Source: Xestospongia muta (Eukaryota; Porifera; Demospongiae; Haplosclerida; Petrosiidae). Taken from it: 64,000 nucleotides of DNA. The notes below the pieces were generated by a model, which saw only the letters and a program-made list of their open reading frames with translations, was not told where the DNA came from and made no database searches. Position 1 is the stretch's first letter. Every line of letters begins with the position of its first letter. The stretch spans positions 15,252,192 to 15,316,191 of the forward strand of contig OY848917.1 in the NCBI GenBank assembly GCA_963693285.1, read 5' to 3'. The position numbers and the translations under genes were made by a program. Positions 1 to 63,687 of the stretch are shown here, piece after piece.

Positions 1-3000
1 CTTATATTACATTATATCACACTTACTGGCTATTAAATTGTAGAGGACACATTCAGATGACAAGTAATCACAGCACAATTGATGTATAAAAAGAAAACAA
101 TAGAGTAAATAAATGTCAACTTCACATTCAATACACTTAGGACTTATATTACATTATATCACACTTACTGGCTATTAAATTGTAGAGGACACATTCAGAT
201 GACATGTAATTACAGCACAATTGATATATAAAAAGAAAACAATAGAGTAAATAAATGTCAACTTCACATTCAATACACTTAGGACTTATATTGCATTATA
301 TCACACTTACTGGCTATTAAATTGTAGAGGACACATTTAGATGACAAGTAATTACAGCACAATTGATGTGTAAAAAAAAAACAATAGAATAAATAAATGT
401 CAACATCACATTCGATACACTTAGGACTTCTATTACATTATATCACACTTACTGGCTATTAAATTGTAAAGGACATATTCAGACAACAAGTAATTACAGC
501 ATAATTGATGTGTAAAAAGAAAACAATAGAGTAAATAAATGTCAACTTCACATTTAACACACTTAGGACTTATATTACATTATATCACACTTACTATCTA
601 TTAAATAGTAAAGGACATATTCAGATGACAAGCAATTAGAGCATAATTGATGTGTAAAAAAATAGAGTAAATAAATGTCAACTTCACATTCAATACACTT
701 AAGACTTATATTACATTATATCACACTTACTGGCTATTAAATTGTAGAGGATACATTCAGATGACATGTAATTACAGAGCAATTGATGTGTAAAAAGAAA
801 ACAATAGAGTAAATAAATGTAAACTTCACATTCAATACACTTAGGACTTATATTGCATTATATCACACTTACTAGCTATTAAATTGTAGAGGACACATTT
901 AAATGACATGTAATTACAGAGCAATTGATGTGTAAAAAGAAAACAATAGAGTAAATAAATGTAAACTTCATATTCAATACACTTAGGACTTATATTACAT
1001 TATATCACACTTACTTTCTATTAAATTGTAAAGGACATATTCAGATGACAAGCAATTACATTATAATTGATGTGTAAAAAGAAAACAATAGAGTAAATAA
1101 ATGTAAACTTCATATTCAATACACTTAGGACTTATATTACATTATATCACACTTACTTTCTATTAAATTGTAAAGGACATATTCAGATGACAAGCAATTA
1201 CACCATAATTGATGTGTAAAAAGAAAACAATAGAGTAAATAAATGTAAACTTCATATTCAATACATTTAGGACTTATATTACATTATATCACACTTACTC
1301 GCTATTAAATTGTAAAGGACATATTCAGATGACAAGCAATTACACCATAATTGATGTGTAAAAAGAAAACAATAGAGTAAATAAATGTAAACTTCACATT
1401 CAATACACTTAGGACTTATATTACATTATATCACACTTACCTGCTATTAAATTGTGGAGGACACATTTAGATGACAAGTAATAACAACACAATTTATGTG
1501 TATAAAAAAAACAATAGAGTAAATAAATGTAAACTTCACATTCAATACACTTAGGACTTATATTACATTATATCACACTTACTGGCTATTAAATTGTAAA
1601 GGACATATTCAGATGACAAGCAATTACATTATAATTGATGTGTAAAAAGAAAACAATAGAGTAAATAAATGTAAACTTCATATTCAATACACTTAGGACT
1701 TATATTACATTATATCACACTTACTTTCTATTAAATTGTAAAGGACATATTCAGATGACAAGCAATTACACCATAATTGATGTGTAAAAAGAAAACAATA
1801 GAGTAAATAAATGTAAACTTCATATTCAATACACTTAGGACTTATATTACATTATATCACACTTACTTTCTATTAAATTGTAAAGGACATATTCAGATGA
1901 CAAGCAATTACACCATAATTGATGTGTAAAAAGAAAACAATAGAGTAAATAAATGTAAACTTCACATTCAATACACTTAGGACTTATATTACATTATATC
2001 ACACTTACCTGCTATTAAATTGTAGAGGACACATTTAGATGACAAGTAATAACAACACAATTTATGTGTATAAAAAAAACAATAGAGTAAATAAATGTAA
2101 ACTTCACATTCAATACACTTAGGACTTATATTACATTATATCACACTTACTGCCTATTAAATTGTAGAGGACACATTTAGATGACAAGTAATAACAACAC
2201 AATTTATGTGTATAAAAAAAACAATAGAGTAAATAAATGTAAACTTCACATTCAATACACTTAGGACTTATATTACATTATATCACACTTACTGGCTATT
2301 AAATTGTAGAGGACACATTTAGATGACAAGTAATAACAACACAATTTATGTGTATAAAAAAAACAATAGAGTAAATAAATGTAAACTTCACATTCAATAC
2401 ACTTAGGACTTATATTACATTATATCACACTTACTGGCTATTAAATTGTAGAGGATACATTCAGATGACAAGTAATCACAGCACAATTGATGTGTATAAA
2501 GAAAACAATAGAGTAAAAAAATGTCAACTTCATATTCAATACACTTATATAGGACTTATATTACATTATATCACACTTACTATCTATTAAATAGACATAT
2601 TCAGATGACAAGCAATTAGAGCATAATTGATGTGTAAAAAAATAGAGTAAATAAATGTAAACTTCACATTCAATACACTTAGGACTTATATTACATTATA
2701 TCACACTTACTGGCTATTAAATTGTAGAGGATACATTCAGACAACAGTTAATAACAGCACAATTAATGTGTAAAAAGAAAATAATAGAGTAAATAAATGT
2801 CAACTTCACATTCAATACACTTAGAATGTATATTACATTATATCACACTTACTGTCTATTAAATTGTAGAGGACACATTCAGATGACAAGTAATCACAGC
2901 ATAATTGATGTGTAAAAAGAAAACAATAGATAAGAATAAAAATGTCAACATAACATTTAATACACTTAGGATTTATTTTACATTATATCACACTTACTGG

Positions 3001-5215
3001 CTATTAAATTGTAAAGGACACATTCAGATGACAAGTAATAACAGCACAATTGATGTGTAAAAAGAAAACAATAGATAAGAATATAAATGTCAACGTCACA
3101 TTTAATACACTTAGGATTTATTTTACATTATATCACACTTACTGGCTATTAAATTGTAAAGGACACATTCAGATGACAAGTAATAACAGCACAATTGATG
3201 TGTAAAAAGAAAATAATAGATAAGAATAAAAATGTCAACGTCACATTTAATACACTTAGGATTTATTTTATATTATATCACACTCACGTCCTATTAAATT
3301 GTAAAGGACACATTCAGATGACAAGTAATAACAGCACAATTGATGTGTAAAAAGAAAACAATAGAGAAAAAAACTGTGAACATCATATTAAACACAATTA
3401 GGATTTATTTACATTATATGACACTTACCCACTATTAAATTGTAGAGGACACATTCAGATGACAAGTAATTACAACACAATTGATGTGTAAAAAGAAAAC
3501 AATAGAGTAAAACTGTGAACGTCATATTCAACACAATTAGGATTTATTTACATTATATGACATTTACCTTCTATTAAATTGTAGAGGACCCATTCAGATG
3601 ACAAGTAATAACAGCACAATTGATGTGTAAAAAGAAAACAATAGAGAAAAAAACTGTGAACATCATATTAAACACAATTAGGATTTATTTACATTATATG
3701 ACACTTACAAACTATTAAATTGTAGAGGACACATTCAGATGACAAGTAATTACAACACAATTGATGTGTAAAAAGAAAACAATAGAGTAAAACTGTGAAC
3801 GTCATATTCAACACAATTAGGATTTATTTACATTATATGACATTTACCTTCTATTAAATTGTAGAGGACACATTCAGATGACAAGTAATAACAGCACAAT
3901 TGATGTGTAAAAAGAAAATAATAGATAAGAATAAAAATGTCAACGTCACTTTTAAAACACTTAGGATTTATTTTACATTATATCACACTCACTTCCTATT
4001 AAATTGTAAAGGACACATTCAGATGACAAGTAATAACAGCACAATTGATGTGTAAAAAGAAAACAATAGAGAAAAAACTGTGAACGTCATATTAAACACA
4101 ATTAGGATTTATTTACATTATATGACACTTACAAACTATTAAATTGTAGAGGACACATTCAGATGACAAGTAATTACAACACAATTGATGTGTAAAAAGA
4201 AAACAATAGAGAAAAAACTGTGAACGTCATATTAAACACAATTAGGATTTATTTACATTATATGACACTCACCTTCTATTAAATTGTAGAGGACCCATTC
4301 AGATGATAAGTAATTACAGCACAATTGATGGGTAAAAAGAAAACAATAGAGTAAAAAATGTCAACATCATATTCAACACACTTAGGATTAATATTACATT
4401 ATGTCACACTTACGTTCTATTAATTTGTAGAGGACACATTCAGATGACAAGTAATAACAGCACAATTGATGTGTAAAAAGAAAATAATAGAGTAAAAACT
4501 GTGAACGTCATATTAAGTACAATTAGGATTTACTTACATTATATGACACTTACCCACTATTAAATTGTAGAGAACACATTCAGATGACAAGTAATTACAA
4601 CACAATTGATGTGTAAAAAGAAAATAATAGAGTAAAAACTGTGAACGTCATATTCTACACAATTAGGATTTATTTACATTATATGACACTTACATTCTAT
4701 TAAATTGTAGAGGACACATTCAGATGACAAGTAATAATAGCACAATTGATGTGTAAAAAGAAAATAATAGAGTAAAAACTGTGAACGTCATATTCAACAC
4801 AATTAGGATTTATTTACATTATATGACACTTACTTGCTATTAAATTGTAGAGGACCCATTCAGATGATAAGTAATTACAGCACAATTGATGGGTAAAAAG
4901 AAAACAATAGAGTAAAAAATGTCAACATCATATTCAACACACTTAGGATTAATATTACATTATATCACACTCACCACCTATTAAATTGTAGAGGACACAT
5001 TCAGATGACAAGTTATTATAGCACAATTGATGTGTAAAAAGAAAACAATAGAGTAAATAAATGTCAACATCACAATTAATACACTTAGGACTTATATTAC
5101 ATTATATCACACTTACGTGCTATTAAATTGTAGAGGACACATTCAGATCACAAGTAATGACAGCACAATAAATGTGGAAAAAGAAACAATAGAGTAAATA
5201 AAATGTAAAAATAGA
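1..5215 (-). repeat. Array 1 of candidate single-codon exons: 37 tandem ~140-bp units, each acceptor + 3 nt + donor
   Basis: Thirty-seven head-to-tail units spaced 130-146 bp (mostly 139-142) lie in the ankyrin intron and begin mid-array at the left edge. On the minus strand each reads ..CAATTTAATAG, NNN, GTAAGTGTGATATAATG... Positions (lowest plus base) and minus-strand triplets: 27 CCA, 169 CCA, 311 CCA, 453 CCA, 595 ATA, 731 CCA, 873 CTA, 1015 AAA, 1157 AAA, 1299 CGA, 1441 CAG, 1583 CCA, 1725 AAA, 1867 AAA, 2009 CAG, 2151 GCA, 2293 CCA, 2435 CCA, 2581 ATA, 2711 CCA, 2853 ACA, 2998 CCA, 3143 CCA, 3288 GAC, 3429 TGG, 3568 AAG, 3709 TTT, 3848 AAG, 3993 GAA, 4133 TTT, 4273 AAG, 4414 AAC, 4554 TGG, 4694 AAT, 4834 CAA, 4975 GTG, 5117 CAC. 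Every unit keeps AG before and GT after the triplet. A T/C-rich stretch (TTTTCTTTTTACAC) lies further upstream. The repeat, the variability and the splice-like flanks are seen directly; use as exons is inferred. Alternatives are recursive splice sites or an intronic satellite. Confidence 0.75.
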
Positions 5216-5235
5216 AAGTTATCTATTAAAAAAGA

Positions 5236-5320
5236 ATATTGACATACTGACCTTTCGTCACATTTATATCCTGCCTTATGTACATGTCAATATGGTTATG
5301 ACTAATTAATGCATAAAATG
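5236..5320. repeat. First copy of the ~270-bp spacer block (interrupted by the hAT-like insertion)
   Basis: The sequence aagaatattgacatactgac through the gttatgactaattaatgcat stretch matches blocks starting near 6380, 7105, 7820, 8550, 9265, 9985 and 10405. Each block ends near ..ttaacagatgtgtaaaaag before a new triplet unit. No conserved reading frame was found across the copies. Confidence 0.6.
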
Positions 5321-5329
5321 GTTTCTAAT

Positions 5330-6050
5330 TAGTGCTGAAATGGAACCCAATCCTACCAGATATCTGATCACTAATTTTGTATCCGGATCTATAATATACT
5401 GTCCGGAGTACTGCATGTGACTACCATGTGTTTGTGCATGTGCTCTTTGAGTAGTAGTGAAAGTGAGTATGGCAGGTAAAAGAAGTGTTGTATGTAGCTT
5501 TTTTTTAGGGTTTTTAACGAAGATGGCAAGGCAAAAGCACATTGTAAAATGTGTAACAACCTGTCATTGGCTTATTCTGGTGGAACTGGAAACCTGCTAC
5601 ATCATTTACAAATGAAACACCCAACGATGTTGGACCCCAATAAAGGAAAGAAGTAAACTACTCTCTCTTCGTTTAAACTCTAGTGAACGATCAATAGAAA
5701 TAACCAAATCCATATCGTTATTTGTGGTGCTTGACTTGTGTCCTATATCTGTTGTTAATGGAATTGGATTCAAAAAGCTACTCAATTACATCAAACCAGG
5801 CTATTGTGTACCATCCAGACCTCACTGCTTATTTTTCTAAATAAAAATTTGCCTAGAACTTAGATAATGTTTTCAATATTAATTAATTCATATTTACCAC
5901 TTGCACAAGTTTTTTACTTTTTTTCTGAAGTGATTGAACATTTAATTCTGATCATTGTTTACTTAATTAAGTGACAGGATATCCGGATATCCTATCTAAT
6001 TAATCTACCAGATATCTGGATTAATAAAACCAGTATCCGTTTCAGCACTA
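5330..6050 (+). mobile_element. hAT-like non-autonomous element with BED-finger fragment, inserted in the array region
   Basis: The ends are inverted: TAGTGCTGAAA at 5330 and TTTCAGCACTA ending at 6050. Adjacent octamers tttctaat (5322-5329) and cttctatt (6051-6058) match at 6 of 8 positions, fitting an aged 8-bp target duplication. Uninterrupted copies of the target (atggcttct.. acacagaggc) occur at about 6473 and 7200. The plus strand around 5521-5656 encodes a BED-type zinc finger: EDGKAKAHCKMCNN, then GTGNLLHHLQMKHP, with a CxxC and HxxxxH pattern, before a stop. BED fingers are the N-terminal DNA-binding part of hAT transposases; the catalytic part is missing. Confidence 0.7.
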
Positions 6051-6180
6051 CTTCTATTATACAGAGGCAATTTTAAAAGTCTCTATAAACTGTAACTTTT
6101 ATTGTTAAAGCACTCAAAATAACACTTATAAAGGCATATTTATTTTTAAAAATATAGCTTCTACAATCTTATATAACAGA

Positions 6181-9100
6181 TGTGTAAAAATAATACAATA
6201 GAGTAAATAAAATGTCAATGTCACATTCAATACACTTAGTATTTATATTACATTATATCATACCTACCTCCTATTAAATTGTAAAGGACACATACATATG
6301 ATAAGTAATCACAGCATAATAAATGTGGAAAAAGAAAACAATAGAGTAAATAAAATGAAAACATTGCAAGTAATCTATCAGAAAAGAATATTGACATAGT
6401 GACCTTTCTTCAGATTCATCATGTCTTATGTATATGTCAATATGGTTATGACTGATTAATGCATTAAAAATGGCTTCTCACACAGAGGCTAATTCAAAGG
6501 TCTCTATAAACTGTAACTGTCATTGTTAAAGCACTCAAAATAACACTTATAAAGGCATACACATTTTTAAAAACACAACCTTTTGTACAAAAAATTATTA
6601 TTAAAACCTTATTTAACAGATGTGTAAAAAGAAAACAATAGAGTAAAAAAATGTCAACGTCACATTGAACATACTTAGGATTTATGTTACAATTTATCAC
6701 ACTTACCGACTATTAAATTGTAAAGGACATATTCAGATGACAAGTAATTGCAGCACAATTGCATGTATAAGAAAAAATAAGAGTAAAAAAACCCCATCAA
6801 TGTCACATTCAATACACTTAGGATTTATTTTATATTATATCACACTTACCCGCTATTAAATTATAGAGGACACATTCAGATGACAAGTAGTTACAGAACA
6901 ATTGATGTGTACAAAGAAAAAAAATAGAGTAAAAAAACCCATCAATGTCACATTCAATACACTTAGGATTTATATTACATTATATCATACTTACTTTCTA
7001 TTATATTATAATGGATACATTCAAATGACAAGTAATTACAGCACAATAAATGTGGAAAAAGAAAACAATAGAGTAAATAAAACATAAACATTGCAAGTAA
7101 TCTATCAGAAAAGAATATTGACATAGTGACCTTTCTTCATATTTATTACATGTCTTATGTACATGTCAATATGGTTATGACTAATTAAAACATTAAAAAT
7201 GGCTTCTAACACAGAGGCTAATTCAAAGGTCTCTATAAACTGTCATTGTTAAAGCACTCAAAATAACACTTATAAAGACATATACATTTTTAAAAACATA
7301 GCCTTTTGTACAAAAAATTATCATTAAAACCTTTTTTAACAGATGTGTAAAAAGAAAAAAAATACAGTAAAAAATGTCAACATCACATTGAATATACTTA
7401 GGATTTATATTACATTATATCATACTTACCTGCTATTAAATTGTAAAAGACACATTCAGATGAGAAGCAATTGCAGCACAATGGATGTGTAAAAAAATAG
7501 AGTAAAAAAATGTCAATGTCATATTCAATATACTTTGGATTTATTTTATATTATATCACACTTACCAGCTATTAAATTATAGAGGACACATTCAGATGAC
7601 AAGTAGTTACAGAACAATTGATGTGTACAAAGAAAAAAAATAGAGTAAAAAAACCCCGTCAATGTCACATTCAATACACTTAGGATTTATATTACATTAT
7701 ATAATGCTTACCAGCTATTAAATTGTAAAGGACACATACATATGATAAGTAATCACAGCATAATAAATGTGGAAAAAGAAAACAATAGAGTAAATAAAAT
7801 GAAAACATTGCAAGTAATCTATCAGAAAAGAATATTGACATAGTGACCTTTCTTCAGATTCATCATGTCTTATGTATATGTCAATATGGTTATGACTGAT
7901 TAATGCATTAAAAATGGCTTCTCACACAGAGGCTAATTCAAAGGTCTCTATAAACTGTAACTGTCATTGTTAAAGCACTCAAAATAACACTTATAAAGGC
8001 ATACACATTTTTAAAAACACAACCTTTTGTACAAAAAATTATTATTAAAACCTTATTTAACAGATGTGTAAAAAGAAAACAATAGAGTAAAAAAATGTCA
8101 ACGTCACATTGAACATACTTAGGATTTATGTTACAATTTATCACACTTACCGACTATTATATTGTAAAGGACACATTCAGATGACAAGTAATTGCAGCAC
8201 AATTGCATGTATAAGAAAAAATAAGAGTAAAAAAACCCCATCAATGTCACATTCAATACACTTAGGATTTATTTTATATTATATCACACTTACCCGCTAT
8301 TAAATTATAGAGGACACATTCAGATGACAAGTAGTTACAGAACAATTGATGTGTACAAAGAAAAAAAATAGAGTAAAAAAACCCATCAATGTCACATTCA
8401 ATACACTTAGGATTTATATTACATTATATCATACTTACTTTCTATTATATTATAATGGATACATTCAAATGACAAGTAATTACAGCACAATAAATGTGGA
8501 AAAAGAAAACAATAGAGTAAATAAAACATAAACATTGCAAGTAATCTATCAGAAATGAATATTGACATAGTGACCTTTCTTCATATTTATTACATGTCTT
8601 ATGTACATGTCAATATGGTTATGACTAATTAAAACATTAAAAATGGCTTCTAACACAGAGGCTAATTCAAAGGTCTCTATAAACTGTCATTGTTAAAGCA
8701 CTCAAAATAACACTTATAAAGGCATACACATTTTTAAAAACATAGCCTTTTGTACAAAAAATTATCATTAAAACCTTTTTTAACAGATGTGTAAAAAGAA
8801 AAAAAATACAGTAAAAATGTCAACATCACATTGAATAAACTTAGGATTTATATTACATTAGATCACACTTACATGCTATTAAATTGTAAAGGACACATTC
8901 AGAGGAGAAGCAATTGCAGCACAATTGATGTGTAAAAAAATAGAGTAAAAAAATGTCAATGTCATATTCAATATACTTTGGATTTATTTTATATTATATC
9001 ACACTTACCAGCTATTAAATTATAGAGGACACATTCAGATGACAAGTAGTTACAGAACAATTGATGTGTACAAAGAAAAAAAATAGAGTAAAAAAACCCC

Positions 9101-10345
9101 GTCAATGTCACATTCAATACACTTAGGATTTATATTACATTATATCATGCTTACCAGCTATTAAATTGTAAAGGACACATACATATGATAAGTAATCACA
9201 GCATAATAAATTTGAAAAACGAAAACAATAAAGTAAATAAAATGTAAACATTGCAAGTAATTTATCAGAAAAGAATATTGACATAGTGACCTTTCTTCAT
9301 ATTTATTACATGTCTTATGTACATGTCAATATGGTTATGACTAATTAAAACATTAAAAATGGCTTCTAACACAGAGGCTAATTCAAAGGTCTCTATAAAA
9401 CTGTCATTGTTAAAGCACTCAAAATAACACTTATAAAGACATATACATTTTTAAAAACATAACCTTTTGTACAAAAAATTATCATTAAAACCTTTTTTAA
9501 CAGATGTGTAAAAAGAAAAAAAATACAGTAAAAAATGTCAACGTCACATTGAATATACTTAGGATTTATATTACATTATATCATACTTACCTGCTATTAA
9601 ATTGTAAAAGACACATTCAGATGAGAAGCAATTGCAGCACAATGGATGTGTAAAAAAATAGAGTAAAAAAATGTCAATGTCATATTCAATATACTTTGGA
9701 TTTATTTTATATTATATCACACTTACCAGCTATTAAATTATAGAGGACACATTCAGATGACAAGTAGTTACAGAACAATTGATGTGTACAAAGAAAAAAA
9801 TAGAGTAAAAAAACCCCGTCAATGTCACATTCAATACACTTAGGATTTATATTACATTGTATCATGCTTACCTCCTATTAAATTGTAAAGGACACATACA
9901 TATGATAAGTAATCACAGCATAATAAATTTGAAAAATGAAAACAATAGAGTAAATAAAATGTAAACATTGCAAGTAATTTATCAGAAAAGAATATTGACA
10001 TAGTGACCTTTCTTCATATTTATTACATGTCTTATGTACATGTCAATATGGTTATGACTGATTAGTGCATTAAAAATGGCTTCTCACACAGAGGCTAATT
10101 CAAAGGTCTCTATAAACTGTCTCAAAATAATACTTATAAAGACATATACATTTTTAAAAACACAAGCTTTTGTATAAAAAATTATTATCAAAACCTTTTT
10201 AACAGATGTGTAAAAGAAAACAATAGAGTCAAAAAATGTCAACATCAAATTTAATATACTTAGGATTTATGCTAAAATTTATCACACTTACTGGCTATTA
10301 TATTGTAAAGGACATATTCAGATAGCAAGTAATCATAGCACAATA
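6181..10345 (-). repeat. Array 2 of candidate single-codon exons: 17 units inside a higher-order repeat
   Basis: This block lies nearer to exon 3 and holds 17 more units of the same design, but two or three units alternate with a ~270-bp spacer block. Triplets (lowest plus base, minus-strand codon): 6268 GAG, 6707 TCG, 6850 CGG, 6997 AAA, 7430 CAG, 7566 CTG, 7712 CTG, 8151 TCG, 8294 CGG, 8439 AAA, 8873 CAT, 9009 CTG, 9155 CTG, 9591 CAG, 9727 CTG, 9872 GAG, 10292 CCA. Segments 6.27-7.71 and 7.71-9.16 kb are near-identical at an offset of 1444 bp, so the array grew by segmental duplication. Donors are GTAAGT, GTAAGC, GTAAGTATG or GTAGGT, all compatible with U1 pairing. Many acceptors carry TTTAATAG, others TATAATAG. 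No unit has lost AG or GT. Confidence 0.72.
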
Positions 10346-10910: not shown

Positions 10911-11009
10911 CTTAATAACAATATTCATATCAGCATTTTGGTTGACTAATACTTTAACAATATCTGCATATCCTTTGTCACTTGCATAATGAAGGGCTGT
11001 CCATCCTTC
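10911..11009 (-). CDS. Ankyrin gene exon 3 (one complete 33-residue ankyrin repeat)
   Basis: The acceptor TGTAATAG precedes 99 nt, followed by donor GTAATTTG. The translation starts EGWTALHYASDKGYADIV and ends VNQNADMNIVIK, a whole ankyrin repeat bounded by phase-0 introns. Such exons can be duplicated or skipped without shifting frame. The acceptor context (TAATAG) resembles the acceptors of the triplet units downstream (TTTAATAG). Confidence 0.88.
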
Positions 11010-14000
11010 CTATTACATATAACATACAAATAATCAATTGTAAAATTAAAACATTCACTCTACAATAATAGTACATACATATCTTATCTCTTCACTTTGT
11101 CATTATCATTATAACATATTACATTCATATATTATGCAAATGTAGGTCATGTTGTACAGGAAGGAAATGACTACATCTATTACTAATAAGCCTTCATCAC
11201 TTGAATAACTGTTTTAATACTAATTTATACAAGATGGATTAAATTATATACAGTTAGAGTGTAGCATGAGGGACTAATATACAACATGCAAACAGAAAAA
11301 CATATTAGAATATACTATTACATCAATGATCCAGCTGACAATAATATAACAAGTAGCTATTTATGTTGCTTAGCATATCAACTACCATCATCTTTAAACT
11401 TTCATATGACTCTTTTAATTACATTATTCACAAGTCTACTACAATAATCAACATTACCTCCATTTGACAGTTATTGCATCTGACAAACTATAGATCTTCA
11501 ACAGTCTGTACATTAAAAAGGCTGGCTATTTTTAACTATGGATTTGTTACAATAGCAAAAAAGTACACTAATTAGAGCTAAGCAATAAACTTGACACTTC
11601 AATTTTAAACAATTTAAAATAAACAGTTCAATGTTAAACAATTGATGCTTCAATTCAGATCCTTCTTTGCTATTTTGGTGTAAGCACATGATATGACTAT
11701 GGAAGATTATATTACATTATATAAACTTAGCAACTATTACATTGTAAAGGACAAATCCAGATAAGGTCAAACTGACAATAGTATAACATGTAGCTGTTTA
11801 TGTTGCTTAGCACATCAACTATTGTCATCTTTGACAATAAACAATTTCAATTAGAATACAAATGATTAGTATTACCTTAATTAAAATCAATATTAAATAG
11901 AATAAGGATAGACTATATGTACACATAGAATAGGGGTAGGCTCTATGAACATATAGAATAGGGTTAGGCTAAATGCATATATAGAATAGGGATACACAAT
12001 ATGCACATATAGAATAGGAATAGGTTCTATTACATATAGAAGGGTAGGTTCTATGTACATATAGAATAGGGGTGTGCTCTATGTACATACAGAATAAGGG
12101 TAGGCTCTTTGTACAAATAGAATAGAGGTAGGTTCTATGTACTTATAGAATAGGGGTAGGCTATATGTACATACAGAATAGGGATAGGTTCTGTGTACAT
12201 ATAGAATAGGGGTAGGCTCTATGTAGATATAAGATAAGGGTAGGTTTAATGTATATATAGAATAGGGAGAGACTATATTTACATAGAAAATGGAAGGAAG
12301 GTTTTATGTACATATAGAATAGATGTAAGGTATATTTACAGATGTAGGCTATATGCACATATAGAATAGGGATAGATTCTATGTACATATAGAATAGGGG
12401 TAGGCTATATGTACATATAGAATAGGAAAAGACTAGATATACATATAGAATAGGGATAAGTTCTATGTAGATATAGAATAGAGGTAAGTTCTATGTACAC
12501 ATAGAATAGGGGTAGGCTATATGTACATATAAAGTAGAAATTGACTATATGTACATATAGAATAGAGATAGGTTTATGTACATATAGAATAGGAATTGGC
12601 TATACATACATATAGAACAGGGATAGGCTACATGTGCATTTAGAATAGTGGTAAGCTATATGTACAGTTAAAAGAGGGGTTGGCTATGTGTACATATAGA
12701 ACAAGAGTTGGTTATAACTACAGTTAGAACAGGGGTTAGCTATACATATATTTAGAACAAGGGTTGGCTATAAATATATTTAGAACAGAGGTTGGCTATA
12801 TGTAAATTTAGAACAGGGGTTGGATATACATACATTTATAACAGGGGCTGGCTATATATACATTTAGAACAAGGGTTGGCTATACATACATTTAGAACAG
12901 GAGTTGGCTATATGTACATTTAACACAAGGGTGGGCTATACGTACATTTAGAATAGGGTTAGGCTATAAGTACATTTACATTAGGTATTGGCTATACGCA
13001 CATTTAGAATATGGGTTGGCTATATGTATATTTAGAAGAGAAGTAGGCTATACGTACATTTAGAAAAGGGTTGTATGTACATATAGAATAAATTCTATGT
13101 ACATATACAATAGGGATAGGTTCTATGTACATATAGAATAGAGGTTGCTTCTATGTATATATTCAATAGGGGCAGGCTATGTGTACGTATAAAATAAGTA
13201 TAGGCTATATATACATATAGAATAGAAATAGGCTATATGTACATATAGAATAGATGTTGGCTATATGTACAAATTGAATAGGAATAGGTTCTATGTACAT
13301 ATAAAATAAGGGCATGGTATATGTACACATAGATTAAAGGGAAGACTATATCTACATATAATATAGGGATAGGTTCTATGTACATATAGAATAGGGATAG
13401 GCTATATATACCTATAGAACACAGATAGGCTATACATACATTTAAAATAGGGGTAGGCTATACATACATTTAGAATAGGGGTTGGCTCTACATACATTTA
13501 GAATAGGGGTTGGCTCTACATACATTTAGAATAGGGATAGGCTATACATACACTTAGAATAGTGGTTGACTATATGTACATTTAGAATAAGGGTAGGCTA
13601 TACATACACTTAGAAAAGTGCTAGGCTATATGTACATATAGAATCGAGATAAGTTCCATGTATATATAGAATAGAAGTAAATTCTTTGAATATATAGAAT
13701 AAAGGTAGATTCTACACATATATAGATTAGGGGTAGGCAATATGTACATATAGAATAAAGATAGGTTATATGTAAATATAGAATAGGGATAGGTCTATGT
13801 ACATATAAAAAAGGAGTATGCTATATGTACATATAGATTATATATATAGAATAGGGATAGGCTATACATACCTATAGAACATGGTTAGGCTATACCTGAA
13901 TTTAGAATAGTGCTAAGCTATACGTACAGTTAAAAGAGGGTTTGGCTATACATATGTTTAAAACAGGAGTTGGCTATATGTACATTTAGAACAGAGGTTA

Positions 14001-17000
14001 CCTATACGTACATTTAGAACAGACGTTGACTATATGTATATTTACAAATAGTGGCTAGCTATATGTACATTTAGAAAAGGGTTAGGATATATGTACATAT
14101 AGAATAAAGATAGGCTCTATGTGCATATAGAATAGAAGTAGGATATACATACATATAGAATAAGGATAGGTTCTATGTACATATAGAATAGGCATAGGCT
14201 ATATGTGCATTTAGAATAGTGGTAAGCTATATGTAGAGTTAAAAGAGGGGTCGGTCGTTTGTTATACTTATATTTAGAATAGGGGTAGGCTATACTTATG
14301 TTTAGACTAGCGTTTGGCTATACATACATTTAAAGTAGGGGTAGGCTATACCTGCATTTATAATAGAGATTGGCTATACACTCATATAAAATAGGGATAA
14401 GCTCTATGCATATATAGAATAAGAGTAGGCTGTATGCACAGATTGAATAAGGGCATGCTCTAAGGTCATATACAATAGGGATAAGCTATACCAATAGAAC
14501 AGGGGTAAGCTATACATACATTTAGAATAGGACTAGGCTATACATACATTTAGAATACCGGTTGGTGATACATACATTTAGAATACAGGTTGAATATATG
14601 TAAATTTAGAATAGGGAAAGGCTATATGTATGTTTAGAATAGGGGTTGGCTATACGTACATTTAGAATTAGAGTTGGCCATACAAATATTTCAAACAGGG
14701 TTAAGATAAATGTACATATAGAATAGGGATAGGCTCTATGTGCATATAGAATAGGTTTAGGATGTACATACATAAATAATAAGGATAGTTTCTATGTACA
14801 TATAGAATAGAGATAGGCTCTATGCTCATAAAGAATAGGGCTATGATCTACGTACCTATAAAATAGGGACATGGTCTACACCCATATAGATTAGGGGAAT
14901 GATCTATGTATATATGGAATAAGGGTAGGCTCTATGTGGATATACAATATGGGTATATATGGTCTATACACATATAGAATTGGGATAGGCTATACATACC
15001 TATAGAACAGGTTTAGGCTATATGTATATTTAGAATAGGGATAGGCTGAATGTACATTTAGAATAAAGGATTGGCTATATGTACATCCAAAATAGGGGTT
15101 AGATATATGTACATTTAGAATAGGGGTAGGCTATATGTACATTTAGAATAGGGGTTGGCTAAATGTACATTTAGAATAGGGGTTGGCTATATGTACATTT
15201 AGAATAGGGGTTGGCTATATGCACATTTATAATAGGGATAGGCTAAATGTACATTTAGAATAAGGATTGGTTATACCTACATTTAGAATAGGGGTAGGCT
15301 ATACATGCATTTACAATAGGGATAAGCCCTATGTGCATATAGAATAAAGGTAGGCTCTATGAGCATATTAAATAAGGATAGGCTATACATACCAATAGAA
15401 CAGGTGTAAGCTATATGTACATTTAGAATATGGGATAGGCTTTATGTACATTTAGAATAGGGGTAAGCTATAGCTACATTTAGAAAAGCGATAGGCTATA
15501 CATTCACATAAAATAGGGATGGGCTCTAAGCTCGTATAGAATAGGGATAGACACACGCACACATATAGAATAAAGGTAGGCTCTATGAACATTTAGAATA
15601 AGGTTTGGCTATACCTACATTTAGAATAGGGATAGGCTATGCAAATATTTAGAATAGAAATAGGCTATATATACACATAGAATAGGGATAGGTTATACAT
15701 ACATTTACAATAAGGGTTGGTTATACATACATTTAGAACAAGGGTAAGCTATACGTATATTTAAAATAGCAGTCGGCTATAAGTACTATTAGAATAGGTG
15801 TATGGTATACATATATTTAGAATAGGGGTTGGCTATATGTACATTTAGAATAGGGGTTGGCTAAATGTACATTTAGAATAGTGGTTGGCTATACGCAAAT
15901 TTAGAATAGAGAAAGTCTATACATACATTTAGAATAGAGGTAGGCTATACATACGTTTAGATTAGGTGTTGGCTATACGTATATTTAGAATGGGGACAGG
16001 CTATAATACATTTAGAATAAGGGTTGGCTATACACACCTATAGAACAGGTTTAGGCTATATGTACATTTAGAATAGGAATAGGCTGAATGTAAATTTAGA
16101 ATAGCAATAGGCTATACATATATTTTAGAACAGGCATAGGCATTTAGAATAAGGGGAGGCTATACGTACATCTAAAATAGGGGTTGGATATATTTACATT
16201 TAGAATAGGGGTAGGCTATACATACATTTAAAATCAGGGTTGGCTATACGTACATTTAAAATAGGGGTAGGATATATGTACATTTAGAATAGGGTTGGCT
16301 ATACATACTTTTATAATAGGGGTAGCCCACACATACATTTACAATAGAGGTAGGCTCTACGTGTATATAGAAAGAATAAGGGTAGGCTCTAAGCTCGTAT
16401 AAAATAGAAATAGGCTCTATGCACACATAGAATAAAGGTAGGCTCTATGAGCATATTCAATAAGAATAAACTATACATACCAATAGAACAGGAGTAAGCT
16501 ATACATACATTCAGAATATAGGATAGGCTATACATATATTTAGAATAGAAGTTGGCTATACGTAAATTTAAAATAGGAGTAGGCTATAATTACATTTAGA
16601 AAAGTGATTGGCTATACGCTCACATAAAATAGGGATAGGCTCTATGCCCAGATTATATAAGGGTAGGCTATAAGCTCATATAGAATAGGGATAGAATAAA
16701 GGTAGGCTCTATGCCCATTTAGAATAAGGGTTGGCTATACCTATATTTAGAATAGGGATAAGCTATACATACATTTAGAATAGGGTTGGTTATACGTACA
16801 TTTAGAATAGGGGTTGGCTATAAGTATATTTAGAATAGGGATAAGCTATACGTATATATATGATAGGGGTATGCTCTATGTACATATAAAATAGGGATAG
16901 GCTATACATAAATATAAAATAGGGGTAGGCTTTACGTACATACAGATTAGTAGTAGGCTGTGTGTACATATAGAATAGAGATAGGCTATACGTAGATATA

Positions 17001-19791
17001 GAATAGTGGTAGGCCCTATGTACATATATAATAGAGATAGGCTATATGTATGTATAGAATAGAGGTTTCTTCTATGTACACATACAATAGGGGCAGGCCA
17101 TATGTACATATAGAATAGGGATAGGCTATCTATATATATACATTAAGGGTAGGCTCTGCATACATATATAAGTAAATAGGGATAGGCACTGCACACATGT
17201 AAAATAAGGATATGCTCTGCACACATGTAGAACTCACATGTAGAATAGAGATAAGCTCAACACACATGTAGAATAGAGGTAGGCTCAACACACATGTAAA
17301 ATAGGAATAGGCTCTATGGACATGTAGAATAATGATAGTCTCTATGCATATGTAGAATAGGGATAGGCTCAACGTACATGTAAAATAGGGATAGGCTCTA
17401 TGCATATGTAGAATAGGGGTAGGTTCTATGCACATGTAAAAAGGGGTAGGCTCTATGCACATGTAGAATAATGATAGTCTCTATGCATATGTAGAATAGG
17501 GATAGGCTCAACATACATGTAAAATAGGGATAGGCTCTATGCATATGTAGAATAGGGGTAGGTTCTATGCACATGTAAAATAGGGATAGGCTCTATGCAT
17601 ATGTAGAACAGGGGTAGGCTCTACACATATGTAGAATAGGGATAGGGTTGGCATGCATATATAATAGGTGTAGGCTATACACACATGCAGAAAAAAGGTA
17701 GGTTCAACGCACATGTAGAATAGGGGTAGACTATACGTAGATATATTGAATAGGGATAGTTTCTATGTACATATAGAATAGGGATATGCTATATGTACAT
17801 ATAGAATAGAGATAGCTTCTAATAGGGGTTTATAGAATAAGGGTAGGATCTATGTACATATAGAATAGGGATAGGTTCTATGTATAATTTTATTCAATAT
17901 ACTTAGAACATATACTACAATATAACACACATAGCAACTATTATATTGTGAAGGACACATCCAGAAGACAAGGTCCAACTGACAATAATATAACACATAG
18001 CTTTTTATGTTGTTTAGCATATCAACTATCATCGTCCTTGACAATAAACAATTTAAAATACAAATACAAATGATTGGTGATACCTTAATGAATATCATTG
18101 TTAGAATGCACAGTCATACAACAAAATTAAAGTAAACACAACACAATAAATGCAGAGAAAAAAACAATAGAATAACAAAAAATGTCGATGTTACACTTAA
18201 TACACTTAGGATTTATATTATATTGCATCACACGTAATGACTATTATATTGTTAAGGACACAATCAGATGACAAGTAATTACAACACAATAGATGTGGAA
18301 ACAAATAACGATACGGTAAAAATTTTAACATTGCATTCAATACACTTAGGATTTATACTGCATTATATCACACTTACCAACTATTATATTGTAAAGGACA
18401 CATTTAAATGACAAGTAATTATAGCATAATAGATGTGGAAACATAAACAGTAGAGTAAAAAAATGTGGACATACATCTCATTATTTGATAAAGCTTTTGT
18501 AGTCAAACTACTTCTGTTAGTTACTTCATTACATAAACAATAAGAAAACAAAATGACAATAAAATCTAGTGTTAGTCAAATTTAAAGAAGATATTTTTAG
18601 ACAGGTTGATTCATCTATTAAGTGTTAGATTTTAATACATAATAATAAAATAGATTTACCATATCTCTAGTATTTACATCAGCTCCTCTAACAAGAGCAT
18701 CATTTATTCCTAACAAGTCTCTATTCTTAGCAGACTCAATTAGATCGCGATTCTATGGTAAAAGAAAAAAGTATTAAGAAATATATGACAGGATTTCCAT
18801 AAATCTAGAGATAAACATCTTCAATATAGTGCCAAAGGTAATTTCACTCAGGAATATATCTCGGGCTAAAAGTAAATAACAACTAATTAGCCTTATTACA
18901 GATTAACGGTTATTGCTGAAAATGGATAACAGAACAGACACAGTTTGGCTATTATAATGTTATTGTCTCTATAATGTTATTGTCCCACTTTACTAAACAA
19001 TGAAATAGTGCGCATGTGTATAGATAGATAGATAGAGATAAGATAGAGATAGATAGATAGCGATAAAAAAATATCATAGATATATATATATATATATTGT
19101 CTATACAACATATATATTATTTGAAGCTGACCATTTCACTAAAAAGGCACAACATCCATGTTTTAATCACAGAGAAATAAAGATGGTGAGCATTACATCT
19201 GACAAACCCAAAAACCTGATTGTCTAAGTAAGTACATTGATAAATTCTTATTTCATATTTCATATTGACCACAGTATGAAATTAAAATTTGACTTACTAA
19301 GGATAATTACTATGCATTACATAACAAAATCTTGCAATCTATTTTAGACATACAAAATTCATGGTTGCAGAAAAGTTTTCCTTGACAAACTTTACATAGT
19401 TGTAGGTATCCATTCGAGCAAAAACCATAAAATTTTATCACATTAAATAAGCAAAAACACTAAATCTACTACACAAAGCAACAAAGTTATCTTAATATTA
19501 AACTAACCATTAACAGTTATAGGTTAATTAATATGTTACACATGGACAAGTCCATCAGTTAGTTAGTAAAAGTCACTTTTTAATGGAGTGTACAACAATG
19601 GTCATAGAAATAGAACAATAATTAGACTGGACAGTTAGATACAACTATTAATATAAATAGCAAAAATAGAATGCAGTAACATCATAAGGAACACCTTAAT
19701 GGTCATGAAGAGACCCATCCACTATTTTATACTTTTACACAGTAATATACCAAAAGGATTATACTGTACTTACCAATCTTCGCTGGTCCAT
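10911..19791 (-). CDS. Ankyrin-repeat protein gene, 5' part (exons 1-3), continuing past the left edge
   Basis: Three minus-strand exons join in phase 0: 19791-19774 (ATG plus five codons, donor GTAAGTACAG), 18752-18660 (31 codons) and 11009-10911 (33 codons). The joined product starts MDQRRL. It continues as a helical half-repeat ending GADVNTRDM, then a full ankyrin repeat starting EGWTALHYASDKGYADIV and ending NADMNIVIK. The TALHYA motif, the 33-residue exon and the junction ADVNTRDM/EGWTALH are diagnostic of ankyrin repeats, which are protein-binding scaffolds. There is no signal peptide, so a cytosolic product is likely. No stop codon occurs in the window; further ankyrin exons are expected left of position 1. 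The intron after exon 3 contains the single-codon exon arrays, so any included triplet would fall between two ankyrin repeats. Family is confident; the partner and function are unknown. Confidence 0.82.
11905..17885. repeat. 28-bp minisatellite, ~6 kb, in the ankyrin intron
   Basis: About 210 diverged copies of a 28-bp unit of the form ggggtaggctatatgtacat + ttagaata fill this stretch. For example the units at 15123 and 15151 are exactly 28 bp apart. Subfamilies alternate (ctctatgtacatata, ctatacatacattta, ctctatgcacatgta). Since 28 is not divisible by 3 the frame cycles every 84 nt, which produces long stop-free runs of Tyr/Ile/Pro/Leu that are repeat artefacts, not genes. Confidence 0.92.
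18225..18260 (-). pseudogene. Degenerate triplet unit with broken donor
   Basis: This copy has AATATAATAG then TCA then TTACGTG on the minus strand (triplet 18238-18240), so the GT of the donor is lost. Similar broken copies sit at 17935-17937 (TTG followed by CTATGTG) and 11731-11733 (TTG followed by CTAAGT). They show what decay looks like when the splice sites are not maintained. Confidence 0.5.
18370..18395 (-). other. Isolated intact triplet unit in the upstream ankyrin intron
   Basis: The minus strand reads ..AATATAATAG, TTG, GTAAGTGTGATATAATG, with the triplet at 18378-18380. The flanks match the array units (aaaggacacat, gatgacaagtaatta). Both intron dinucleotides are intact and the codon is Leu. 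It lies between exons 2 and 3, so inclusion would add one residue between NTRDM and EGWTALH. Confidence 0.5.
18660..18752 (-). CDS. Ankyrin gene exon 2 (N-terminal capping half-repeat)
   Basis: The acceptor CCATAG precedes 93 nt in phase 0, followed by donor GTAAATCT. The translation begins NRDLIESAKNRDL and ends LVRGADVNTRDM. This matches the second helix and loop of an ankyrin repeat (L-x-x-GADVN) and acts as an N-terminal cap before the full repeat in exon 3. Confidence 0.8.
19774..19791 (-). CDS. Ankyrin gene exon 1 (start codon exon)
   Basis: Eighteen nucleotides read ATG GAC CAG CGA AGA TTG on the minus strand, followed directly by the strong donor GTAAGTACAG. Joined to the next exon it gives MDQRRL-NRDLIESAKN with no frame break. 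A near copy of this exon and its donor flank lies at 10761-10778. Confidence 0.65.
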
Positions 19792-20769: not shown

Positions 20770-22275
20770 AATAAGTTATAGTTAAGAGGTTTATGTACAT
20801 GTCATAGGGCTAAGTTATATTGTAATACAAGACATTTATGTGGTTGGGTAATGAAAGGTATGTAAGGTATGTACATGTCAGAGGACTAGGTTGGATCATA
20901 TTATGAGAGAGGATGGGCATTAAGAAGTGTGTACATGTCATGGGACTCTCTTGGATGATATTACAACAGCTTGGGTATTAAGAGGTGTTTTTGGATCTTA
21001 TTAAAATTGCTTGGGCATTAAGAGGTGTGTAGATGTCATGGGAGTATCTTGGATCATATTACAACAGCTGAGCATTAAGAGGTGTGTAGATGTCATGGGA
21101 GCATCTTGGATCATATTACAACAGCTGGGCATTTAGAGGTGTGTACATGTCATGGGAACATCTTGGATCATATTACAACAGCTGGGCATTTAGAGGTGTG
21201 TACATGTCATGGGACTATCTTGGATGACATTACAATGGCTTGGGTATTAAGAGGTGTTTTTGGAGCATATTATAATAGCTGGGCATTAACAGGTATGTAC
21301 AAGTCATGGGAATATCTTGGATCATATTACAACAGCTGAGCATTTAGAGGTGGTTACATGTCATGGGTCTAGCTTGGATTCTATTACAAGAGGTTGAGTA
21401 TTAAGACATTATATACACTAGGTAACATTATGTAGTATGTATGATAAGACATTTGTACATGTACTTGAATAGGACAATGCTACATTATGTATAGGGCAAT
21501 ATGGGATAAGAACATGTCACAGGATTAAATTGTATATAAGGACCACAAAATGTTTGTGTAAAATATGTTAATATGTTTGTTTATATGTTCACAGGACTAG
21601 GTTGTATAATATAAGAGGTTTGTATATGTCCCAGGACTATGTTTGGGTGATATATGTAGCATAAATATTATAATACAAGTGGTCTTGTCAATATTATAAT
21701 GGACAACAAGAGTGGATGTATTGACATAATTATTATAGTACTCATAATAAATTCAACATGTATACACAATAAATGGAGAGATTATATGGATATTTGAATA
21801 TTACCATAAATTGTAAGACTTAAAAGAAAGTTACAAGTGTGTCTGAATATATCTTGTAGGGATCACAAGAGATTGGTATATGGAGATGTTGTAGTGTGAT
21901 AGAATTATCAAAGAGTGTAAGTATGTACAAAGAACAAAGGATATGTGTACACATGCTTGTTATAGGGTGTACTTGTTGATCAAAAGAGTTAAACATAATA
22001 ATTATAGAAATAGCATACTATAGAATTGCTCTCAAAGTTTGCACAAACTACAACTCTAGTACGTGACTTGTTTCAACAGTGTAGTTATCCAGTAGACAAT
22101 ACTGTTACATATTACAGCAAGTATGTTGCAAGAGAGTTGAAGTATGTTCTAAAATTAGACACTTGGATCCACAGAGTTCATGTACTTAGCAGGGAGGCTC
22201 TACTGGTCATTATATTTAACAAAATTATATGACTCCTCATTACCTAGACTACATATGGTTAGTAACTACAACAAA
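20770..22275. repeat. Arm A of a large inverted repeat, containing a 57-bp tandem repeat
   Basis: The arm matches the reverse complement of ~35510-36780 with obvious divergence. Matched landmarks include aagacatttatg (20.83 vs 36.70 kb), acactacaacatctc (about 21.88 kb reversed vs 35.93 kb) and agtctagtacatgac-like sequence (22.05 kb vs 35.75 kb reversed). Inside, 20785-21420 is a tandem array of ~57-bp units (tcttggatcatattacaaca...). A 68-codon frame at 22026-22232 lies in the repeat and its counterpart in arm B has stops, so it is not called a gene. Confidence 0.72.
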
Positions 22276-61700: not shown

Positions 61701-63687
61701 CTGGCACAATTTGTATGCATATAATATGCCACTATGATAATCAAAATGTTAGCATATATACATTTTAAACTGATGTGACAAAAACACTTCATAGTCAAAA
61801 ATGGTACAAACTATTATGGATGCCCTGTCTAAAAGCTCAGTACTGATTTATTTGTGATAGGAGGAGGGGTTAAAATAATTATTAATAAATATTTTCTTTC
61901 GTAAATTTGGGAATTTTTATTTCACTTTGCAAAATTTTCCAAAGTCAAACAGATTTACAATTCGAGAAGGACAAACCAATACATACATGTAACAAATAAC
62001 TGATATACCTTAAATGTACAATAACACAAAGAGATTTACACAGGTGATCAGATATACTAACATATACTACCAGTACTATCTAAACAGTTTGAATAGTAAT
62101 AATAAAATTCTCATAACTTAAAAAGATACAATAACACTTCAATTGAGTATAGTAATACATGCTTTATTCAATAAAATACTCCTACCTTTAACAGGAATGC
62201 ATTATCAGGCATTATCAAGCTATATCAACCATAATAGGTTATATCATGCTATATCGAGTTACATCAATCCCATCAGACTACACAAGTCTATTTCAGACCA
62301 TATCAGACAACATAATGCGATATCATCAATGATGTAAGCAAATTGACTAACCAAGAGTCCATTCAAATATAGATTATATACAAATAACAGTGTAGATCAT
62401 ACTGTTACCAAAAAGTAAGTGCAAGCCTGTAACAATACTGATAAAAGTAACTGACTATCCATTAAAAAGTGACTGTGAAAACTTCAAAAACAACTGGTTA
62501 TGAAGTATAATAAAGACTACTTTTATGTAAAGTATTGTGAACTACATATAAAATTGCAATCCCACAAGTCACAAAATGAATTCACAATGTAAAGCCATAA
62601 CAATTAACATGCAAGCTGAAAAGCAGCCATATGTTATACACAACAAAATAATCCAGGGATTGTGGGTCTAGCCTAAGTTCAATAATATATATCTCTGACG
62701 CTCAAATTACACAGTTCATTACTGACCATAGCCTGATTTATTGAACTAGAGACCGAAAGCAAATTTGAATCTTTGGAAAAGATATCAGATACACTGAGCT
62801 ATATATTACATAGTGTTTCACAATGCTATTACAAACAATAATTGATAAAGATAATGTTAAGAATTAGGCATTAAATTCTAGCTGGCAAGCATGCCAACCG
62901 TAACCACATGATCATCTTTTTTGTATATAAATAGAGGTCATCATAGCCTCATAGGTTACTCACTTATAGTAGGACAAGTTTAAAGCTTACCAAAGACAAG
63001 ACATAGTAAATATTAGGAAATTTTGTCAGGTTTTGTTTTGGTGATTTACAAATTTTAACAACTGGGCCAAATTTAATCCTTACAAATAGTGGCAGTGTAA
63101 ATATAAATTAGTATTGTCAGATTATAATGATTAATCTAAATTAAAAATTCAAAGTATAATTTTGGAAGCAATTTTCAAAACTATTCCTTTCTAAATTTAC
63201 TCACTAGACATTAATTGTAATTCTGTTTCATAGTGTTTAAACATACTCTGATCAATTATTAACAGGGAAATCATGCTTTTAGGTGCATAGCATAACAACA
63301 GCATAGCAGACAGACCAGACAGAACTTAATTGAATTCACTATGATATTGCACACTCTAAAGGCAAATAGTTTACATAAGACTTCCTGTTATTTTGTATGA
63401 AGCATACAAAGTATTATGTACTTTGCTAATATAAAACACTACATATATATATATATATATATAGATCAACAGTCCATGACCATCTTTAATAATTACACGT
63501 GCAAGAAATATAACCAGTATGAATAATGTCTAATTTATTACACATTATTTTCATTATATGTGTATGAAAATAGAATAACTAAAAGTAAAGACAAGAATAA
63601 GAAAGGACCTCTATAACTCACCTTACAAATAATCTTTCGACTCACATTACTATTGAAGAATGCCATAAAAATACGATAGTCATCATT
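54418..63687 (-). CDS. GABA-B-like class C G-protein-coupled receptor, 3' 13 exons (5' end beyond the window)
   Basis: Thirteen minus-strand exons keep phase over 2031 nt: 63687-63622, 61299-61251, 61152-61037, 60157-59855, 59595-59526, 59087-58887, 58820-58649, 58346-58193, 57432-57325, 56559-56422, 56308-55976, 55713-55594 and 54618-54418. The order is: C-terminal half of a Venus-flytrap ligand-binding domain, a short linker with no Cys-rich domain, seven membrane segments, a coiled-coil tail and the stop TAA. Signature text includes RIFMAFFNSNVSRKIICKAY, NAYDAALVWANVW, KASSPKFN and WRIYKIFYNP. In this family the receptor sits in the plasma membrane and couples to G proteins; the ligand here is unknown. 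An in-frame TGA at 61073-61075 interrupts the product, so it is a pseudogene, an allele or a sequence error. Confidence 0.88.
55976..58820 (-). CDS. Receptor seven-transmembrane exons
   Basis: Exon 58820-58649 carries membrane segment 1 (LEIAITAAIVTIGIVVSIVL). Exon 58346-58193 carries segment 2 after KASSPKFN. Exon 57432-57325 carries segment 3 and ends ARNWRIYKIFYNPKIEER, the class C equivalent of the cytoplasmic WR-x-x-x-IF motif. Exon 56559-56422 carries segment 4. Exon 56308-55976 carries segments 5-7 (MKWWDGILMAYNLLLSFGLI, VVFVIFLFLVPSFIIKI, FWFSLIFIVSFPTIILGGL). Confidence 0.88.
58887..60157 (-). CDS. Receptor ectodomain exons 4-6
   Basis: Exon 60157-59855 (101 codons) holds QAFNAYDAALVWANVWHKAV and ends VFCGRS. 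Exon 59595-59526 reads GFYSFSKQYDADNFVQIMIT. Exon 59087-58887 reads DQECYIGVYQNYNSFDSECV and ends PYRWKGEN. The alternating short strands and Asn-x-Ser/Thr sites fit a folded extracellular lobe joining straight to the first membrane segment. Confidence 0.82.
60185..60255. repeat. AT-dinucleotide palindromic microsatellite
   Basis: A (TA)n run with two flanking atatcatgata motifs lies in the receptor intron. Other (TA)n runs occur at about 19080-19097 and 63442-63463. Confidence 0.8.
61037..61299 (-). CDS. Receptor ligand-binding domain exons, one with an in-frame TGA
   Basis: Exon 61299-61251 encodes AYKLGLTTHNHVWILP and ends one base into a Gly codon. Exon 61152-61037 continues GTKCGCECTEEEMNEAIQGM, then IFIDTS, a TGA, and LHHFESETYSVQ. 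Acceptor (GTTTAG) and donor (GTTGGT) are present and both flanks of the stop are in the correct frame. The 116-nt exon cannot be skipped without shifting frame. Confidence 0.75.
61300..63621 (-). other. 2.3-kb intron of the receptor gene; nothing else seen
   Basis: The flanking exons (..RKIICK / AYKLG..) join directly in phase 0, so no exon is required here. A 64-codon plus-strand frame at 62143-62337 comes from tatatca-type low-complexity repeats. Confidence 0.55.

Follow-up and report, generated by a model that had tools for sequence, protein, structure and literature searches.

An array of candidate single-codon exons in an ankyrin gene

The window, that is, the whole stretch of 64,000 nucleotides analysed here, spans C1:15252192-15316191 of a sponge assembly of 158.0 Mb in 28 contigs. 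The mitochondrial contig of this assembly encodes a cox1 protein (TGA taken as Trp) with 100% full-length identity to a cluster whose representative has the UniProt code XESMU, Xestospongia muta; the host is most likely this giant barrel sponge, although cox1 by itself would not tell close relatives apart. Poly(A) RNA-seq of X. muta is publicly deposited (ERR13669939, 5.76 million reads; PMC12398682). It contains part of an ankyrin gene, one intron of which is occupied by 100 tandem units of about 142 bp each; the full array extends over C1:15245642-15262485. Fifty-four units lie within the window, on the minus strand, and 46 more continue to the left, from C1 15245642. An earlier note on this DNA had reported at least 54 tandem minus-strand units in which three nucleotides precede a GTAAGT-type donor; exactly that number is recovered in the window, as part of the array of 100. 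TRF independently detects a 142-bp period, with 36.8 copies at window positions 1-5202. Two other matches to the unit pattern in the window, at 61810 and 37120, were left out as unrelated.

Both AG and GT are retained in all 54 units of the window, as had been claimed, and in 95 of the 100 units of the full array. The uniform acceptor sequence that the note described is found in most of the window units, as TTTAATAG, and fails in others, where TATAATAG occurs or, in unit 4416, ATTAATAG. The window triplets comprise 23 different codons, which would specify 16 amino acids (A, D, E, F, H, I, K, L, N, P, Q, R, S, T, V and W) and include no stop, the same figures as were first counted. Between units 5119 and 6270 there is a BED zinc-finger frame (Pfam PF02892, above cut-off), which may be left over from a hAT-like mobile element that entered the array.

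Directly upstream of the array is an ankyrin exon, denoted A, which matches the Pfam Ank family (PF00023, E=1e-9) and is an open frame bounded by AG and GT. Further upstream is an ankyrin cap exon that is conserved in paralogues. The intron between the two holds an isolated intact unit with the triplet TTG, followed by two units without a donor; an intact TTG unit is found at the matching place in four of the five genes with a clearly seen cap exon, the window gene included, and is absent in region R1516. Most of the same intron is filled by a tandem satellite of about 214 copies, and similar sequence is present in paralogous regions; a 57-bp tandem repeat elsewhere in the window has similar sequence in three of these regions. 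After the array of 100, the window gene continues in the order B-A-B-A-C-D-E and ends in a final exon like that of R1180 (see below).

Table 1. Features of the window, in window coordinates (first base of the window = 1).
Feature	Position	Strand	Description
Array of tandem units	27..10294	-	Per unit: acceptor (usually TTTAATAG), 3-nt candidate exon, donor (usually GTAAGT)
Triplet first bases (5' on the minus strand), units 1-18	10294, 9874, 9729, 9593, 9157, 9011, 8875, 8441, 8296, 8153, 7714, 7568, 7432, 6997, 6852, 6709, 6270, 5119	-	
Triplet first bases, units 19-36	4977, 4836, 4696, 4556, 4416, 4275, 4135, 3995, 3850, 3711, 3570, 3431, 3290, 3145, 3000, 2855, 2713, 2583	-	
Triplet first bases, units 37-54	2437, 2295, 2153, 2011, 1869, 1727, 1585, 1443, 1301, 1159, 1017, 875, 733, 597, 455, 313, 171, 29	-	
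BED zinc-finger frame	5516-5653	+	
Ankyrin exon A	10911..11009	-	99 nt, phase 0, EGWTALHYASDKGYADIVKVLVNQNADMNIVIK; donor AAG/GTAATTTGG (slash, exon end)
Tandem satellite	11897-17884		28/84-bp repeat
Isolated intact unit	18378..18380	-	Triplet TTG
Upstream ankyrin cap exon	18660..18752	-	93 nt, phase 0, NRDLIESAKNRDLLGINDALVRGADVNTRDM
57-bp tandem repeat	20951-21406	+	

Recurrence of the arrays and architecture of the host genes

The exact 23-base pattern TTTAATAGNNNGTAAGTGTGATA gives 478 matches in the 158-Mb genome and its reversed control gives none; among the matches listed, all are on chromosome C1 and all but one fall at 11.98-15.34 Mb. No exact match was found in the genome_contigs or viral_contigs collections. 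Units were defined by the presence of ATAG or GTAAG together with at least 36 of 55 flank matches, and eight regions of C1 (302 kb in total, window included) contain 602 of them. Their own AG and GT around an exon of at most 30 nt, the usual mark of a microexon, are present in 568 of the 602; because the search required ATAG or GTAAG, it favours such units and biases the counts of retained AG and GT upwards. The donor is GTAAGT in 520 of the 568 intact units, and unit spacing ranges from 113 to 165. A held-out stretch of a further 6 kb contains 18 units, 16 of them intact and none with a stop.

Twenty-three arrays have A or B exons on both sides, and 22 of these lie in an A-B intron on the same strand, the exception being a 3-unit group between two B exons. 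Exon A ends in ..NADINIVTK and exon B begins with DGSTPVMLAA..; both are 99 nt long and in phase 0, and 27 of 28 exon A candidates and 26 of 28 exon B candidates are open, of that length and bounded by AG and GT. Of the 22 arrays, one is preceded by an A candidate that is not intact, and two A-B introns contain no array. Groups of 2-3 units also lie in the intron that leads from the cap exon to A, 11 units precede a B exon for which no A exon was found, and some arrays are cut off by the ends of the fetched regions. The 22 A-B arrays range from 2 to 100 units, with 2 to 16 different residues per array.

In region R1180, six A-array-B pairs precede exons C, D and E and an exon of 689 codons. 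The six arrays apparently belong to one gene, the 5' end of which was not found. In the 689-codon exon, an ankyrin repeat scores above its cut-off and a Roc-like GTPase region (E=0.0014) falls short of its own; the Roc cut-off is passed by two relatives, P0113 and P0116. Array-bearing genes end in a Roc GTPase exon wherever the end was read. A predicted structure of the Roc exon was set aside, its mean pLDDT being 45.6.

The product of joining A to B shows no gap when aligned with solved ankyrin repeats, and an added codon would therefore be an insertion between the two repeats. This agrees with the placement next to an ankyrin repeat that had been proposed for the variable position. The repeats themselves appear to change rapidly: a rough count against a uniform mutation null gives omega values of about 2.3 for exon A and 1.4 for exon B among paralogues, which suggests that repeats A and B diversify too, as would fit a fast-evolving recognition domain.

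An intronless A-B copy, which could represent a fossil cDNA, was sought with a joined A+B peptide; none of the array family was found among the genome matches listed (150 of 5906 candidates scored), and the listed matches that span the A-B joint are 42-55% identical and belong to other ankyrin genes. A joined A+B+C+D peptide retrieved 41 database proteins. Among the 12 examined, the family members are single-exon frames except for two predictions labelled Gigantopelta aegis, a mollusc: P0121, with 44% identity over 89% of the four-exon query, and P0122, with 65% over 72%. The RefSeq entry P0122 has the order cap-A-B-A and an A-B joint without an extra residue. The likeness of these two entries to the sponge family may reflect contamination or a shared family, and P0122 may be a computed model or a contaminant. 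Gene predictors would miss 3-nt exons, and such exons are hard to map.

Length and variability of the triplet

A scan of acceptor-donor distances from 0 to 30 bases returned 540 pairs, in 539 of which the spacer is 3; all of these are on the array strand. The remaining pair, an 18-nt match on the opposite strand and outside the arrays, was judged unrelated. The scan also found 66 acceptor-like sites without a donor, of which 28 are donor-less units of the set of 602. With a fixed spacer of 3 between phase 0 exons of 99 nt, one triplet would add one residue without shifting the frame, as the earlier note had held.

The three triplet bases are the sole hypervariable stretch of the unit. In the 417 units of the five regions that were read first, entropy reaches 1.64, 1.93 and 1.57 bits in the columns of the triplet, compared with 0 to 1.11, and a single value of 1.33, in the 80 flanking columns. 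Summed over the triplet window in all 568 intact units, the entropy is 5.33, compared with 3.16 for the next non-overlapping window and a median of 1.7. On a spanning tree built over the unit flanks, the triplet changes 13.0 times faster per site than the flanks. Between units whose 120-nt flanks are identical, the triplets can differ at all three bases, as in a CAG and GCA pair with 216 matching bases around the triplet.

One account of such a pattern is a non-coding satellite, an intronic tandem repeat in which the triplet is a hot spot of mutation or gene conversion and plays no role in a protein. The tandem duplication is plain, and among unit pairs whose 120 flanking bases show no more than one change, 33 differ in their triplet and 93 share it, a pattern to be expected from short-tract conversion or a hot spot. 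What sets the triplet apart from a satellite is that its length is held at 3, that stops are absent on the sense strand specifically and that silent changes are under-represented (see below); we regard this account as very unlikely. The variety of triplets between near-identical flanks could arise by short-tract conversion between units combined with selection for variety or, alternatively, by targeted mutation.

Codon-like constraint on the triplet

No stop triplet is found in any of the 602 units. The 39 distinct triplets seen in all would, as a random draw from 64, miss all three stops about one time in 18, and CpG-bearing triplets, e.g. CCG, GCG and ACG, are missing as well; the bare absence of stops is thus not specific to stops. 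The evidence to weigh is that of shuffles, of a strand control and of a substitution test.

Shuffling the columns within regions (5000 shuffles of the 568 intact units) gives a mean of 38.6 stops and a minimum of 23, compared with the observed 0. When each distinct triplet is counted once per region (119 triplets), the shuffles give a mean of 10.3 stops and none of the 5000 is free of them. The same units contain 32 stops among the 568 antisense triplets and 33 in the frame AGN/NNG, where the slash divides codons. A T in the first position (151 units) and AA, AG or GA in positions 2-3 (109 units) never combine, with a Fisher P of 6e-17 that ignores relatedness; triplets of the form NAA and NAG are common and are missing only with T first.

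For the substitution test, a spanning tree of 486 edges was used, each with at most 8 flank differences; edges above 8 and the 34 of 602 units that lack AG or GT were left out, and the count of silent and replacement changes leaves out 185 multi-base changes. The remaining 102 single-step triplet changes comprise 91 replacements and 11 silent changes, where the mutation spectrum of the flanks predicts 28.1 silent ones (P=3e-5), and create no stop, where 10.8 are expected (P=1e-5). Counting each kind of change once per cluster pair leaves 80 events, with 10 silent (P=9e-4) and 0 stops (P=2e-4). Counting each kind only once leaves 32 kinds, with 0 stops (P=0.03) and 6 silent, a number indistinguishable from chance (P=0.18), so that the replacement excess rests on repeated events. 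The P values are guides only, because tandem units share ancestry. Nor is an excess of replacement unique to the triplet, since replacement differences outnumber silent ones in exons A and B too.

Taken together, 0 of 568 stops against 38.6 expected, on one strand only, and a replacement to silent ratio of 91:11 amount to a codon-like constraint on the variable part of the unit, which a non-coding satellite lacks. As far as sequence can indicate, these signals match what should be seen in translated codons under diversifying selection, not in a plain satellite, and we infer that the triplets are exons and are translated. The view taken in the earlier note, that they behave as codons, is borne out by the absence of stops, the constant length and the excess of amino-acid-changing substitutions.

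Units without a donor and the number of codons inserted

Of the 602 units, 29 keep the acceptor but have no donor, and in 24 of these 29 the acceptor, if used, would bring the reading frame to a stop within nine codons. In six arrays, namely two in R1387, two in RW and one each in R1398 and R1435, exon A is followed first by one and the same donor-less unit (TGG, then ATAAGT); its acceptor, too, would lead to a stop.

These units bear on the possibility that all triplets are constitutive, the introns of about 139 nt being removed in order and the mRNA carrying the whole row as a loop of 2 to 100 residues. The donors are near consensus, the spacing of the units gives ordinary intron lengths, and any subset of triplets, including all of them, keeps the frame and avoids stops; the window array, read as one chain, would be a hydrophilic stretch rich in P, Q, L and K. 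Obligatory use of the acceptors would, however, truncate the protein at the donor-less units, one of which opens six of the arrays, and a constitutive row would have to differ from 2 to 100 units among otherwise equivalent introns. A constitutive row is therefore regarded as unlikely. Given the place of donor-less units at the head of six arrays, and the stop that lies ahead in 24 of the 29, a strict order of splicing to the nearest acceptor also looks unlikely. These losses of the donor, 29 among 602 units and 24 of them followed by a stop, suggest that the choice of codon would be stochastic or regulated rather than obligatory for all units. Insertion of one or a few codons at each A-B junction is the reading favoured here.

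Comparison with known splicing systems

Large clusters of mutually exclusive exons are known from insect Dscam1, at exons 4, 6, 9 and 17 (PMC6071210; PMC8042237). The comparison with Dscam that had been drawn for this locus holds for the arrangement: like the Dscam1 clusters, the sponge arrays consist of homologous candidate exons in tandem between constant exons, are interchangeable in frame, occur several to a gene and place the diversity in a likely recognition domain. For the docking/selector pairing typical of Dscam-type clusters, no signal was found in the loci compared. Duplexes between an array unit and the spacers (first 600 nt on the A side and last 200 nt on the B side, 30 mononucleotide shuffles) are no better than shuffled ones in the seven loci compared, one unit each, with z from -1.8 to 0.9. 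The candidate exons also differ from those of Dscam1 in being one codon (3 nt) long, and in that the exon, rather than the intron, is the part that changes fast.

Single 3-nt microexons are described for mouse Ncam and Drosophila troponin T (PMC8042270), a 1-nt exon for Arabidopsis APC11 (PMC4674806), and adjacent plant microexons of 5 and 12 nt in PMC8831610. As in Ncam, troponin T and APC11, one codon or less would lie between ordinary splice sites; unlike those single exons, the sponge intron contains up to 100 copies with different codons. The candidate exons thus have their arrangement in common with mutually exclusive clusters and their size in common with microexons. The earlier statement that isolated 3-nt microexons are known in animals and arrays of them are not is in keeping with the single cases of PMC8042270 and with the open-licence PubMed Central literature, where no array of 3-nt exons is found among the matches listed.

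The nearly touching acceptor and donor are also reminiscent of the recursive splice sites and RS-exons of PMC6224609, and the units could on that model be splicing decoys, or stepping stones for the removal of a long intron, with triplets that never remain in the mRNA. RS-exons, as described there, rebuild a 5' splice site at their start, which traceless removal would need; only 4 of the 568 sponge triplets begin with GT and 564 do not. Decoys would, in addition, leave both the absence of stops and the replacement excess unexplained, and we consider this model highly improbable.

In designed ankyrin repeat proteins (DARPins), a recognition surface is formed by the hairpin between 33-residue repeats, and the varied residues lie in or next to this hairpin. 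The variability of the sponge arrays would likewise fall in or beside the inter-repeat hairpin. The difference is that DARPin residues are varied within the repeat and the proteins are built in the laboratory, whereas the sponge residue would be inserted at the repeat boundary, with its variants encoded as separate candidate exons. To our knowledge, an array with single-codon exons under diversifying selection has not been described.

Proposed mechanism

We consider it probable that about 100 one-codon candidate exons lie in the A-B intron of this sponge ankyrin-Roc gene and that splicing, as predicted, inserts one or a few of them between the repeats. The triplet exons would be whole codons in phase 0, and zero, one or many could be joined to A and B; since each is a whole codon in that phase, any subset should be joinable without a frame shift or a stop. 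The chosen codon would add a residue to the hairpin loop between the ankyrin repeats, and this residue may serve diversity of binding, perhaps in immunity or self-recognition. An acceptor and a donor that are 3 nt apart should not be bound simultaneously. The exon junction complex is described as blocking donors near a fresh exon junction (PMC6224609); if sponges share this block, the sequence in which introns are removed could, speculatively, restrict the insert to one codon.

Should the triplets be translated, an early-branching animal would possess protein diversity built at the scale of single codons, each an exon of its own, in arrays that reach 100. Chains of 3-nt exons would stretch the known abilities of the spliceosome, a variable receptor could be built without DNA rearrangement, and standard gene prediction would be shown to overlook such exons. 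The arrays would also allow the question of somatically diversified recognition receptors in sponges to be tested. More tentatively, as a possibility to which we give somewhat less than even weight, the arrays may form a system of somatic diversity in which the codon is the letter: every A-B junction in an ankyrin-Roc receptor would draw one residue from its own array, a gene with six arrays would present a combinatorial binding surface, and the gene cluster would give an animal that lacks adaptive immunity a recognition repertoire based on splicing. The six arrays of R1180 contain 6, 18, 4, 4, 7 and 18 units, which corresponds to 217,728 ordered choices by unit and 1,008 by distinct residue.
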